Below are positions 47,216 to 54,022 of a stretch of DNA of 63,704 nucleotides, in pieces (position 1 is the stretch's first letter; every line of letters starts with the position of its first letter). The translations under genes were made by a program, and so were the position numbers. The stretch is from a virus. The notes under the pieces are model-generated. The model made no database searches and had not been told where the DNA came from. It saw nothing but the letters and a program-made list of their open reading frames with translations. Location of the stretch: the IMG/VR virus record IMGVR_UViG_3300032282_004893, positions 1 to 63,704 of that record; one strand, written 5' to 3'.

Positions 47216-47856
47216 GCTATCAACTATATTTTGATTTTAGAACTCCAGAGCAGAAAGCTGCTCATGACGCGTCCGTGAAAGAAATAAATACAGAGCTAGA
47301 CGATATCTTTGATGAAGAAGAGCGTTTAGATAAATTCTTAGATCTTATCCCTTTTGGCGTCGGGCATAAGGTTCGTGAATTTTATTATTCTTGCAGATGG
47401 AATATTAAATGCACTTATCAAAAAATTCGCTATGGAGTTTCTGACGACGATATTTTTTCATTATATGATAATATATCTAAATTTCTTATTCCAAGATTGC
47501 AGTACTTTAAAAAGCATGGTAAAAAAGGAATTCCAGTAGAATTTGTTCCCCATGATTACCATCTTCTTTCCGAAAGCGAAATGAAGATCGCAGATGAAAA
47601 AGCCGACAGAGAATGGGGTTCTATTCTTGATGAAATTATTTTTGCTTTTGATTATACTATCGACAGTGATAAATACGCTCCATTTCCTGAAATCTTGATG
47701 AAAGATCCTTTTGATAAAATTAATTTCAATCGAGATAGAACTCCAGAAGAAAAAGAAGCTTGGAACAATTATATAGCTCTTTGTAATCAACTTAATGAGC
47801 GCAAGAAAAAGGGCTTAGAACTTTTCGCAAAACATTTTGATAATTTATGGGTTTAA
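47212..47856 (+). CDS. Unknown acidic protein
   Basis: A 214-residue protein, acidic and helical, with many Phe/Tyr/Asp/Lys and no catalytic motif. A middle segment (VGHKVREFYYSCRWNIKCTYQKIRYG, in parts) looks like a conserved core of a family of phage and bacterial hypothetical proteins. The C-terminus is helical. Translationally coupled to the phosphoesterase (4-nt overlap). Function not recognised. Confidence 0.65.
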   Translation: MSYQLYFDFRTPEQKAAHDASVKEINTELDDIFDEEERLDKFLDLIPFGVGHKVREFYYSCRWNIKCTYQKIRYGVSDDDIFSLYDNISKFLIPRLQYFKKHGKKGIPVEFVPHDYHLLSESEMKIADEKADREWGSILDEIIFAFDYTIDSDKYAPFPEILMKDPFDKINFNRDRTPEEKEAWNNYIALCNQLNERKKKGLELFAKHFDNLWV

Positions 47857-47872
47857 TAATATTATAAAAAAA

Positions 47873-48529
47873 ATGAACTTCACACTAGAATCAATAGATC
47901 CAGAATTGGATAAATTAATAAACAAGTATGGATCTGATAAAAATCTTAGCAAGTATAATTTAGTTTATTCTAAGCTTTTTAAAGATATTAAATTAGATGT
48001 GACTTCAGTTTTAGAAATCGGAGTTGGCAGTTTAACTTCCGAAAGCTCAAGTTTTGCTGGCATCAAAAGATTTTTTCCAAACTATTCTCCCGGTGCGTCT
48101 TTAAGGGTTTGGCGTGATTATTTCCCCAACGCTTTCATTCATGGCGTTGATATAGGAGAAGACTGCTTAATAGAAGAGGACAGGATAAAAACTTTTATTT
48201 TTTCTTCTACTCGCCACGACAAGTGTTTGGAGCATTTATTTGAATATAAATATGATATTATAATAGATGACGGAGATCATCAAGGATTGAGCCAACTTTT
48301 AACTTTTAAAAATCTAATTCCTTTGTTAAAGGAAAACGGATATTATTTTATAGAAGATGTTGGCGGTTGCGGTGGCTATTTAGCGACAGACGGAACCTCT
48401 TATAATCCTCAGCTATTTGGTGAATATAAAGATGAATTTTATAAAACTGTAGAAAGATATGAGCAAAAAGCTTATGTAAATACAAGACCAATTATAATAA
48501 CAAAAAATCCAATGACTTTTGGTTTATAG
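47873..48529 (+). CDS. SAM-dependent methyltransferase (paralogue 1)
   Basis: A 218-residue protein, start ATG 47873. YGSDKN, VLEIGVGS (motif I), LRVWRDYFPNAFIHGVDIGED (motif II) and YDIIIDDGDHQ (motif IV, with metal-binding-like D-D-G-D-H) are those of class I O-methyltransferases acting on sugars or macrolides. It is strongly similar, motif by motif, to the gene at 49306-49953, from which it is separated by two small genes and a cupin. It may methylate a glycan made by the phage. Confidence 0.85.
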   Translation: MNFTLESIDPELDKLINKYGSDKNLSKYNLVYSKLFKDIKLDVTSVLEIGVGSLTSESSSFAGIKRFFPNYSPGASLRVWRDYFPNAFIHGVDIGEDCLIEEDRIKTFIFSSTRHDKCLEHLFEYKYDIIIDDGDHQGLSQLLTFKNLIPLLKENGYYFIEDVGGCGGYLATDGTSYNPQLFGEYKDEFYKTVERYEQKAYVNTRPIIITKNPMTFGL

Positions 48530-49305: not shown

Positions 49306-49953
49306 ATGTATAGAAAATTTCAATCTAAAGACCCACTGCTCGATAGTTTAATAGAAAAATACGGGTCAGACAAAAATTTAAGTGAATATAATTTAATATA
49401 TGCTGAAATATTTCAAAAAATAAGATTCGATGTAAAATCAGTTTTGGAAATTGGTATCGGCAGTATGATTTCGCCGCACTCTAGATTCGATGGAATAAAA
49501 ACTCACTACCCACACTATTCTCCCGGCGGTTCTTTAAGGGTTTGGAGAGATTATTTCCCAAACGCTTTTGTTCATGGAGTAGATATTGGAGAAGATTGCC
49601 TTATAGAAGAAGAGAGAATAAAAACATTTATTTTTTCTTCAACCTTACATTATAAATGCTTAGAAAATTTATTTAATTATAAGTACGATATAATAATCGA
49701 TGATGGCGACCATCTTGGTTTAAGCCAACTTCTTACATTCAAAAATCTAGCTCCTCTTTTGAAAGAAAATGGTTATTATATTATTGAAGATGTTGGAGGC
49801 GGAGGTGGGTATCCAGTTACTGACGGCAGTCATTATAATCCTAATTTGCTAATAGAATTCAAAGATGAATTTTACAAAACAGCAGAGAAACATCAATTAA
49901 CAGTCTACGCAAACAAAAGACCTCTAGTATTATCTAGAAACCATGTCGAATAA
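49306..49953 (+). CDS. SAM-dependent methyltransferase (paralogue 2)
   Basis: A 215-residue protein with the same block order as the gene at 47873-48529: YGSDKN, VLEIGIGS, LRVWRDYFPNAFVHGVDIGED, YDIIIDDGDHLG, IIEDVGG. Most of the central 150 residues look identical or conservative, so the two arose by duplication. A good Shine-Dalgarno (AAAGGAGA, 8 nt before the ATG) is present, unusual in this window. Confidence 0.85.
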   Translation: MYRKFQSKDPLLDSLIEKYGSDKNLSEYNLIYAEIFQKIRFDVKSVLEIGIGSMISPHSRFDGIKTHYPHYSPGGSLRVWRDYFPNAFVHGVDIGEDCLIEEERIKTFIFSSTLHYKCLENLFNYKYDIIIDDGDHLGLSQLLTFKNLAPLLKENGYYIIEDVGGGGGYPVTDGSHYNPNLLIEFKDEFYKTAEKHQLTVYANKRPLVLSRNHVE

Positions 49954-51481: not shown

Positions 51482-51703
51482 TTAACTTTTCATAATCTTG
51501 GAGGAGAAGTACCCAGCTACTGCTCCTCCCGCTGCCACAATGCCCGCTAGATAATATCTAAAAAACTCTAGCGCGGCAACTCTTTTTTCTACTTCTTTGC
51601 TCTGGTCTTTCATTTCAGAGATATCAGAAGAAATTTTATCTAGTTTAGCTTCCATCCTTGAGAAGACGGCGTCATAACTATTTTGGCGATATTCTTCTGG
51701 CAT
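51482..51703 (-). CDS. XhlA-like small membrane protein
   Basis: A 73-residue protein. A charged coiled-coil (SRMEAKLDKISSDISEMKDQ, residues about 15-45) is followed by one C-terminal transmembrane helix (YLAGIVAAGGAVAGYF) and a short basic tail. This is the layout of XhlA-type lysis accessory proteins that act with holins. It is preceded by a GTGTAAA variant and lies beside a holin-like gene. Confidence 0.65.
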   Translation of the reverse strand: MPEEYRQNSYDAVFSRMEAKLDKISSDISEMKDQSKEVEKRVAALEFFRYYLAGIVAAGGAVAGYFSSKIMKS

Positions 51704-51741: not shown

Positions 51742-52062
51742 TCAAATTTTCTTTCTTTTTCTTTTTTGGATTTTGTTTGGTTTTCCTACCTTTTCTAATA
51801 GTTTTTCGCTTACTAATTCAACTAATTTTAACCCTAAAAATCCAGCAATAAAAGCAACTCCATTTTGATGTTTGACGTTAACGATATTTAAAGTATCTAC
51901 AAGTACAGGAGTTAAGAAATTTGCCGCAGACATTCCGCCTACAAGAGAAAGAATTACAGATTTTGCATCTGTTTTTGAATTTTTAGTGGCCATTAATATA
52001 GCGCCAAACATCCCACTTATTAAAAATCCTATCTGGATACCCATTTTTTGAAGTTGATCCAT
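51742..52062 (-). CDS. Holin-like membrane protein
   Basis: A 106-residue protein with two or three hydrophobic segments (residues about 8-25, 37-52 and 68-83), Gly/Ala-rich as in holins, and a very basic C-terminal tail (KIQKRKRKKI), typical of the cytoplasmic end of holins. It would form membrane lesions at the end of infection. No endolysin is found in this window. Confidence 0.6.
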   Translation of the reverse strand: MDQLQKMGIQIGFLISGMFGAILMATKNSKTDAKSVILSLVGGMSAANFLTPVLVDTLNIVNVKHQNGVAFIAGFLGLKLVELVSEKLLEKVGKPNKIQKRKRKKI

Positions 52063-52064
52063 AT

Positions 52065-52715
52065 TTATTGTTTTCTCTTTTTTATGGGCTTCTTTTTTAT
52101 GGGTTTGCTTTTTGTAGAAGTGGGGTTTTCTTGTTTAATTAAGTAAACTAGAGCTAAAACTATTCCTGCCAAGCAATAGAGATATATATTTAATAATTTA
52201 GCCTCATCTTTAATAATCTTTTCAGAGCTGTCGTTGATCAAACCCCTGAAAGAATTAATGTTATCGTATATCTTTTTCTTATAGTCTAAGTATTTGTCTC
52301 CGAAGAACGCTTTGTTATCCATCTTTTCAAACGCAGCATTCTCTACATCTTTTGCTAAATCATTACTTATATCAAGACCTTTGCGGAACTCTTTTAGCTC
52401 TTCTTGAGTCAACATTTTGCTAATGACTATTTCTTCATTGAAGTATTTTTCTCTTTCTTTTAAGTGGCTATTGAATTGATCTAAGAATTTTTTATCAGAT
52501 GTTGTAGTATAAGCGGCTCCTAAATAAGTTAATTGATCAGTTGACCTCCTCAAATATAAAGTAATGTCTCTTCCAAATCTAAACCTAGCATAGCCCTGCT
52601 CTATATCTTTAAGACTAGATAGAGCAAGGATAACTATAATACCAGTTGGCAGAAGAGCGAAGAATAAATATTTCTTTATATTTAAAACCAAAACATTCAC
52701 TGTTATTTTATCCAC
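52065..52715 (-). CDS. Chemoreceptor-like four-helix sensor membrane protein
   Basis: A 216-residue protein. TM1 is near residues 14-33 and TM2 near 174-192, with about 140 mostly helical residues between them, predicted periplasmic. The segment LYLRRSTDQLTYLGAAYTTTSDKKFL resembles, in parts, the start of sensor domains of chemoreceptors and histidine kinases (S-x-D-L-T...A-R-x-Y-x-x-T-G-D). No signalling domain follows, only a Lys/Pro-rich basic tail. Its place next to a holin-like gene suggests control of lysis timing or superinfection, by inference. Confidence 0.65.
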   Translation of the reverse strand: MDKITVNVLVLNIKKYLFFALLPTGIIVILALSSLKDIEQGYARFRFGRDITLYLRRSTDQLTYLGAAYTTTSDKKFLDQFNSHLKEREKYFNEEIVISKMLTQEELKEFRKGLDISNDLAKDVENAAFEKMDNKAFFGDKYLDYKKKIYDNINSFRGLINDSSEKIIKDEAKLLNIYLYCLAGIVLALVYLIKQENPTSTKSKPIKKKPIKKRKQ

Positions 52716-53656
52716 TTTTGTTCTTTTAATATCTCCTCTATTAAATCTTTTTCATGGCTGTCCATTTCTTTATCAAATCTCTTTAACAGTTCTGATAATG
52801 GATATACTCTATCTGGAGATTCTTTTTGTTTTTCTTTCAATTCTTGAATTACATCTACAATTTTAACCAATGGAGACTTGAATTCTTCTACTTTTTCTTT
52901 TGTAGCGAAATTGCACATTTCAAAAGCTTTGGGAGTCAATGCTTTAACGATAGAGATGACTGAAGATCCTAACATATTAAATATTGAAAATGCAGCACCA
53001 GCAGCAGGATGTACTGTTGCAAGAAGTCTAAGAATAACAAATACCACCGTAAATATAAGTATCGCAGTCAAAGCACTAAAAACGAACTTCTTTAATCCCC
53101 AAAATACTGCATTAAGGCCAAACATTCCGCTCATTGAATCTAATACAGCTTTATTTTGATCTGCTTCTTTGGCCACTTCTTTGGCTTTATCGGTCAATTG
53201 CCAGAGTTGATCATCGTATTGTTCGTTCAACTCTACTTTTTCTTTTTGTAATTTATTAATTAGCTCGTCCCTTTTAAGGAGCAGCTCTTGCCCTTTCTTG
53301 CGTTCTTCTTCTACTGCGGAATTAAGCAAATCTACGGTAGCTTTTATTCTGTTTATTTCATCAATGTGGGGAGAGCCGACAATAGAAACCACTCTTTCAT
53401 TTAAAGATTTTGCCGTATCTACTTGAATTGGCGGATTAGTTACTTGATTAAGCGAATATTGAATGCCTTGAGCAAGAGCAGAGGTTTGTATTTTTTTTCC
53501 CTTGTCATTCTTTTCTATCTCTACTACAGTAGCGTCTACTTTCTTCTCTTCTTTAGCTATAGCTTTTTGATTGCCATCTATTTGCTTTGCTGGCTTGATT
53601 GTTGAAAAACAACCAGAAAGCAATAACGCCATTAAAATAACCAAAAGTCTTTTCAT
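52703..53656 (-). CDS. Lipoprotein with coiled coil and C-terminal membrane segments
   Basis: A 317-residue protein, start ATG 53656 (8 nt after GTGTAAT). It has a lipoprotein signal MKRLLVILMALLLSGC with the lipobox LSGC, then a charged linker and a long coiled-coil (about residues 100-165). Hydrophobic segments follow around 195-235 (FVFSALTAILIFTVVFVIL, in parts), then a Glu/Lys-rich helical end. A protein anchored at both ends and spanning the envelope could act like a spanin or a tail-interaction barrier. It is coupled to the sensor gene (13-nt overlap). Confidence 0.65.
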   Translation of the reverse strand: MKRLLVILMALLLSGCFSTIKPAKQIDGNQKAIAKEEKKVDATVVEIEKNDKGKKIQTSALAQGIQYSLNQVTNPPIQVDTAKSLNERVVSIVGSPHIDEINRIKATVDLLNSAVEEERKKGQELLLKRDELINKLQKEKVELNEQYDDQLWQLTDKAKEVAKEADQNKAVLDSMSGMFGLNAVFWGLKKFVFSALTAILIFTVVFVILRLLATVHPAAGAAFSIFNMLGSSVISIVKALTPKAFEMCNFATKEKVEEFKSPLVKIVDVIQELKEKQKESPDRVYPLSELLKRFDKEMDSHEKDLIEEILKEQKWIK

Positions 53657-53664
53657 CAAAATTC

Positions 53665-53710: not shown

Positions 53711-53956
53711 TTAATCTTTTTTAGAAGGAGAACGCCCTTTTGGGCCTTTGTGTCGAGGCGCAAATTTTTTCTTGTCTTCTTCTGAGATTTTTGATCTCTC
53801 TTCTTTGTCTAGTTTTCCGTCTTTATTCGTGTCGTACTTGGCTAAAAATTCTTTTGGAGGCCCCTTTTTTTCTTGACTTTTTGGCGGTTTTGGTCCATCT
53901 TGAGCTAGGGCTGTCAGCGAGAGACCTAAGAGTATCGTATATAATAGATATTTCAT
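53711..53956 (-). CDS. Secreted single EF-hand protein
   Basis: An 81-residue protein, start ATG 53956. An N-terminal signal peptide MKYLLYTILLGLSLTALAQ ends at AQ-DG. A Pro/Lys-rich stretch, one canonical EF-hand loop (DTNKDGKLDKEE) and a basic Pro/Gly/Lys tail follow. Proteins with this layout (G-P-P-K-E-F-x-x-x-Y-D-x-N-x-D-G) are common in Verrucomicrobiota and Planctomycetota (from memory), so it was probably acquired from the host. It would be exported to the periplasm and bind calcium. Single-gene transcript. Confidence 0.75.
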   Translation of the reverse strand: MKYLLYTILLGLSLTALAQDGPKPPKSQEKKGPPKEFLAKYDTNKDGKLDKEERSKISEEDKKKFAPRHKGPKGRSPSKKD

Positions 53957-54022
53957 AGTTATTCTATATGACACTTAACAGACTTACAAAGTAACATCTT
54001 TTACATTAACTTTACAAAAAAT

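Follow-up and report, generated by a model that had tools for sequence, protein, structure and literature searches.

A two-transmembrane protein with a predicted receptor-like four-helix domain adjoins a holin gene in uncultured phages and may tune lysis timing

The DNA analysed here (hereafter the window) is the complete 63.7 kb virus record IMGVR_UViG_3300032282_004893 (63,704 nucleotides, 33.6% GC). Only 8 of its 72 genes are preceded by a Shine-Dalgarno-like motif and the upstream regions are AT-rich, which hints at a Bacteroidota-type host; phages of the L098 or L123 type, two of the related contigs, probably infect environmental Bacteroidota. Both open reading frames that the initial annotation had singled out, 52065-52715 and 52703-53659, are present on the minus strand. 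The first is open up to 52715, and its likely true start is the GTG at 52700, since the relatives begin with MNxLVxNIKKYL; the resulting 211-aa product (52065..52700, minus strand) is hereafter called the sensor-like protein. Its first transmembrane (TM) segment, TM1, covers residues 12-30 (52611..52667, minus strand), as judged from hydropathy and from a helix in the fold model, and TM2, assigned by hydropathy, covers residues 170-188 (52137..52193, minus strand). Between them, residues 31-169 (52194..52610, minus strand) form a loop of about 139 residues that is predicted from the model, hydropathy and conservation to be a periplasmic four-helix domain, in agreement with the initial description of a two-TM protein with a loop of about 140 residues. 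A Lys-rich C-terminal tail of 20 residues, predicted to be cytoplasmic, follows TM2. The same topology was found in 28 of 28 aligned members, each with two TMs separated by 130-147 residues and a positively charged tail at the C-terminus. A cytoplasmic signalling output is missing: the aligned members stop about 20 Lys-rich residues past TM2, and the protein is therefore severed from any signalling domain, as had been proposed. The gene is under strong purifying selection (dN/dS 0.03-0.21 in close pairs), which, together with homologues down to 37% identity, indicates that it is real. Elsewhere in the window, the translations of 47837-48529 and 49306-49953 look alike by eye, both methyltransferase-like with a VLEIGxGS motif, which suggests a duplication.

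Iterated searches, run to convergence, recovered the sensor-like family from 44 IMG/VR contigs at 37-97% identity, in four clades, and an uncharacterised BFVD entry (A0A6J7WR66; 42% identity, E 1e-11) is also a member. No meaningful match to the 211-aa protein was obtained in Pfam, PHROGs or NCBIfam, no convincing relative was found among approximately 50,700 named phages, and a sequence search of the PDB gave chance matches only, such as an RNase P protein at E 0.02. None of the 28 family members searched matched a receptor family, Pfam did not find PF12729 in the window, and sequence comparison showed no relationship to methyl-accepting chemotaxis protein (MCP), CHASE3 or histidine-kinase domains. 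Bacterial chromosomal relatives were absent from two genome-contig scans, which require near-exact peptide words and which a distant bacterial ancestor would escape. A profile comparison by hhalign of the family against E. coli Tar/Tsr/Tap and NarX/NarQ gave probabilities below 1%, a comparison without power because the Tar-type and Nar-type domains were themselves joined at only 1.7%.

A likeness to receptors appeared at the level of predicted structure. An AlphaFold2 model built from an eight-sequence alignment (pLDDT 78, pTM 0.62) is an antiparallel four-helix bundle whose helices 1 and 4 run on into both TM helices. Foldseek against the PDB returned weak E-values (best 0.07), with McpS and NarQ heading the list. 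Among the 50 best VIA-align rows against the PDB, 42 were, by our own count, bacterial receptor or histidine-kinase input domains, including HK9 (Z 14.2, rmsd 2.2 Å over 120 residues), NarQ (181 residues including the TMs, 3.6 Å), MCP2201, KinB, PcaY_PP, TorS, Tar and Tsr. Helical bundles reach about Z 13 by chance, and the consistency of the list therefore weighs more than any single Z. Among viral models in BFVD, the first match after one family member was a protein annotated as HlyB-like with a four-helix-bundle (4HB) MCP domain; T4 RI and T were not among the structural matches listed, which proves nothing. As far as the fold is concerned, the initial reading of the loop as a four-helix chemoreceptor-type ligand domain is thus supported, the predicted structure and topology being those of a sensor-type fold with two TMs. 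Common descent from a bacterial receptor is at most a possibility, since the sequence searches gave no link and the profile comparison failed to join even Tar-type to Nar-type domains.

Conservation within the loop is concentrated: 31 of the 35 loop positions invariant across 28 sequences fall in residues 50-83 and 108-144, a split chosen after inspection of the data that comprises about half of the loop and corresponds in the model to the membrane-distal half of the bundle. The first of these segments (52452..52553, minus strand) carries the pattern LRxSTDxLTYxxxAYTxT...F...F.xHLxxR, as read from the invariant residues in the alignment; R51, D55, Y59 and Y64 are among the invariant distal positions. 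Tar and Tsr bind their ligands at the membrane-distal end, and the conserved distal half of the modelled domain argues for a conserved periplasmic contact or ligand. The protein resembles the input domains of Tsr, Tar, MCP2201, PcaY_PP, NarQ, HK9, KinB and TorS in predicted fold, length, flanking TM pair, periplasmic placement and a conserved distal half, where several of those receptors bind ligand; it differs from them in lacking HAMP, kinase and methyl-accepting output as well as detectable sequence homology, and in adjoining a holin in phages.

This holin, recognised as holin-like in the initial annotation, is a 106-aa protein (51742..52062, minus strand) that matches PHROG 2359 at E 4.4e-12, with relatives' holins matching the same family at 1e-13; it is the constant neighbour and presumed partner of the sensor-like protein. 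In 40 of 41 records (40 IMG/VR contigs and the window) the sensor-like gene and a PHROG 2359-type holin gene lie side by side in the same orientation, and in the single exception 53 nt separate the start of the sensor-like gene from the end of the contig; many of the contigs are closely related, and such linkage counts are not independent events. The sensor-like gene comes first in 10 records, with gaps of 0-3 nt, and the holin comes first in 30, mostly with a 4-nt overlap, so that the adjacency has survived rearrangement. Endolysin genes lie near the sensor-like gene in many records (an M15 peptidase no more than about 0.24 kb away, GH19 enzymes mostly within 1-2.5 kb, a GH24-like enzyme at 3.5 kb); in the window itself, no M15, GH19 or GH24-type endolysin was found. 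The earlier placement of the sensor-like gene in a lysis block is therefore put on a firmer footing by holin adjacency and nearby endolysins. On the far side of the holin lies a gene for a 73-aa coiled-coil protein with a C-terminal hydrophobic segment (51482..51703, minus strand), whose counterpart follows the holin in several relatives; the XhlA-like label given to it in the initial annotation is weak (PF10779, E 0.065). Two further kinds of protein were observed in this setting. Repetitive proteins rich in Ala and Gly, about 290-336 aa long, lie beside the holin/sensor pair in two clades (L002:5071-5994, L008:5003-6007, L103:2034-2999, L128:6615-7625; the one tested matched neither Pfam nor PHROGs), and proteins of about 190-199 aa with an N-terminal TM helix are encoded directly upstream of the holin, also in two clades (L098:1891-2490, L118:5097-5666; no family match for the former), and are possible spanins.

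In the converse scan, we took the 80 best holin contigs and classified the gene beside the holin. It was sensor-like in 41, encoded an unrelated three-TM protein in 31 and was neither in five, and three contigs were too short; the sensor-like and three-TM proteins never occurred together beside the holin (0 of 80). The three-TM proteins (91-129 aa; among others L161:1103-1393, L181:4284-4673, L199:4267-4542 and L200:3941-4297) come from phages without the sensor-like protein, where their genes lie next to this holin gene and frequently overlap it; the family has no Pfam match, and one member tested has no PHROG match. On a quick holin tree with modest to weak branch support, the sensor label requires two changes and all three labels require three, and the mutual exclusivity of the slot therefore reflects few events. 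Since the holin occurs in many phages without the sensor-like protein, the latter is not essential to holin function generally.

The main rival to a regulator of the holin is a co-holin, that is, a class II-like two-TM pore subunit with N-in/C-in topology and an enlarged periplasmic loop, required together with the 106-aa holin for hole formation. A pair of TMs with cytoplasmic termini is indeed the topology of a class II holin, the constant, stoichiometric-style pairing with overlapping genes would suit such a subunit, and the three-TM slot protein could be another co-holin elsewhere. However, class II holin loops are much shorter than the approximately 139 residues found here, the invariant residues lie in the loop and hardly at all in the TMs (0 of 19 residues in TM1 and three in TM2, across 28 sequences), which is the reverse of what a pore-forming pair would lead one to expect, and five holin contigs carry neither partner. 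We consider the co-holin explanation unlikely. The same comparative data bear on a second alternative, in which the protein serves superinfection exclusion or guards the envelope and rides in the late operon with no action on the holin. Exclusion proteins are commonly membrane proteins with periplasmic domains, and a receptor-like domain could bind parts of an incoming phage; against this, the sensor-like protein tracks the holin through four clades and in either gene order, and it never accompanies the three-TM slot protein, which leaves a mere passenger role quite improbable.

The second reading frame of the locus, upstream of the sensor-like gene, encodes a 318-aa lipoprotein (52703..53659, minus strand, ATG at 53656), identified from its relatives, alignment and model. 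The initial annotation had described a lipoprotein with coiled-coil and membrane segments, and the alignment of 20 relatives accords with this: the lipobox with an invariant Cys is followed by a predicted long helix, one or two TM segments and a C-terminal domain, with a mean column identity of 81%, although the model is poor (pLDDT 62, pTM 0.22). The tight coupling of this lipoprotein to the sensor did not hold up, however. The lipoprotein was found in 79 loci, and a sensor-like gene lay nearby in only six contigs of that set; the two genes directly adjoin in the window and in one further contig (L020), and in the remaining genomes with both, another gene lies between them. Within the same clade, three sensor contigs (L005-L007) lack the lipoprotein locally, as do the other clades shown. 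Of the pair whose recurrence beside holins in other phages had been suggested as a check, the sensor-like gene was constantly found there, and the lipoprotein was often separated from it or absent. This synteny rules the lipoprotein out as the sensor's constant partner; it is a widespread, separate envelope protein, which may bridge the envelope. It was also considered as a classical u-spanin: a lipobox is present, but a C-terminal TM end is not, about 80-95 conserved residues extending beyond the membrane segment or segments.

One could still suppose that the lipoprotein joins the sensor-like protein in a single device across the envelope, acting in a spanin-like manner or presenting a ligand, as their adjacency in two genomes, the lipobox, the long predicted helix and the membrane segment might suggest; the outer-membrane lipoprotein QseG with the histidine kinase QseE (PDB 9m08) offers a comparison and was among the VIA-align matches listed. 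Given the 79 loci against six contigs, the frequent intervening gene, the sensor contigs that do without it and the C-terminal extension unlike that of a u-spanin, we give this arrangement very little credence. Several other genes accompany the lipoprotein. It is usually followed by other genes, such as those for a short one-TM protein and an ankyrin-repeat protein; the former (L022:7030-7407, L003:5619-5999) resembles the beta domain of the MscS channel by eye, has no Pfam match and is conserved beside the lipoprotein, and the latter (L022:7425-9203, 592 aa) weakly matches a nucleotide cyclase in its C-terminal part (PF00211, 7e-5). Two contigs encode near the lipoprotein a protein with an N-terminal TM and a PAS domain (L011:9204-9803, where PAS was matched, and L015:9189-9806), possibly another phage membrane sensor, and a small protein in the window (53711-53974) with an apparent signal peptide and one weak EF-hand match stays close to the lipoprotein in several relatives.

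Among described lysis regulators, lambda S107, with two TM helices, and P2 LysA, an antiholin in its own right (PMC11413866), are membrane-integral like the sensor-like protein. S107 arises from the lambda holin gene itself as an alternative product, LysA has four TMs, and to our knowledge neither has a large periplasmic input domain like that predicted for the sensor-like protein. In T4, RI acts on the holin T from the periplasm upon superinfection (PMC11413866, PMC8385771) and consists of a single N-terminal signal/TM segment and a small periplasmic domain (PMC11413866). Both would be phage proteins that use a helical domain in the periplasm to detect an event there and then act on the holin. 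The differences are considerable: RI is small, lacks a lasting pair of TMs and carries a signal peptide that can be cleaved, as opposed to two TMs and a bundle of about 139 residues, and T crosses the membrane once and has a large domain in the periplasm, as opposed to the short PHROG 2359 holin, which has no such domain. No sequence link between the sensor-like pair and RI/T was found, and membership of the RI antiholin family was rejected on the two TMs and the loop of 130-147 residues. The proposed device would share periplasmic input and holin output with RI, but its construction would follow that of the input half of chemoreceptors or histidine kinases. A further parallel is the TeaA/ArrA lysis-inhibition pair of ICP1, a non-T4 phage in which an antiholin was sought among TM proteins near the holin (PMC7182436). 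ICP1 TeaA (gp137), gp136, gp138 and gp139 gave no match to the sensor or holin profiles and differ in topology; ArrA itself is not surely among them. N4 is named as another lysis-inhibiting (LIN) phage in an abstract (PMC12642591). The lysis-inhibition systems that the literature search turned up (T4, ICP1: PMC7182436) use other proteins, and nothing relevant on a phage holin combined with a chemoreceptor or sensor domain was found in the library searched.

We therefore return to the reading of the 211-aa protein as a phage-encoded holin partner, a membrane sensor of antiholin-like type that tunes lysis timing, to which we assign a probability of roughly 0.58. The gene pairing makes an action on the holin likely, and the fold together with the conserved distal half makes periplasmic sensing likely. 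The protein would be anchored in the inner membrane, its two ends cytoplasmic and its receptor-type four-helix domain in the periplasm, and the tight linkage, usually with overlapping genes, suggests that it may contact the holin within the membrane. There it could restrain the holin or set its trigger: binding of a periplasmic signal by the conserved membrane-distal half would shift the TM helices and thereby change the trigger time. Candidate signals include a small molecule, cell-wall material, and protein or DNA of a superinfecting phage. Linkage alone does not tell an inhibitor from an activator; by analogy with T4 RI we favour a delaying over a triggering role, the direction being a guess. 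A bolder formulation, in which a chemoreceptor-type input domain without kinase output is wired directly to the holin through its TM helices, reads a periplasmic or environmental cue and lets the phage set its lysis time as a new class of device, is tentative, and we think it somewhat likelier to be wrong than right. The earlier interpretation is thus partly supported: it was right in kind, in proposing an antiholin-type sensor, and wrong on the partner, because the holin and not the lipoprotein is the conserved neighbour.

Experimental evidence that phages control lysis by sensing comes from very few systems (T4, N4 and ICP1), and the sensor-holin pairing suggests an undescribed way for a phage to time the bursting of its host. 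With a sequence-defined family of receptor-like fold beside a named holin family in many uncultured phages, the question of what phages sense before lysis would become one that can be asked, and phage lysis sensing would become approachable with two small genes. A second, new holin partner, the three-TM slot protein, is predicted as well.
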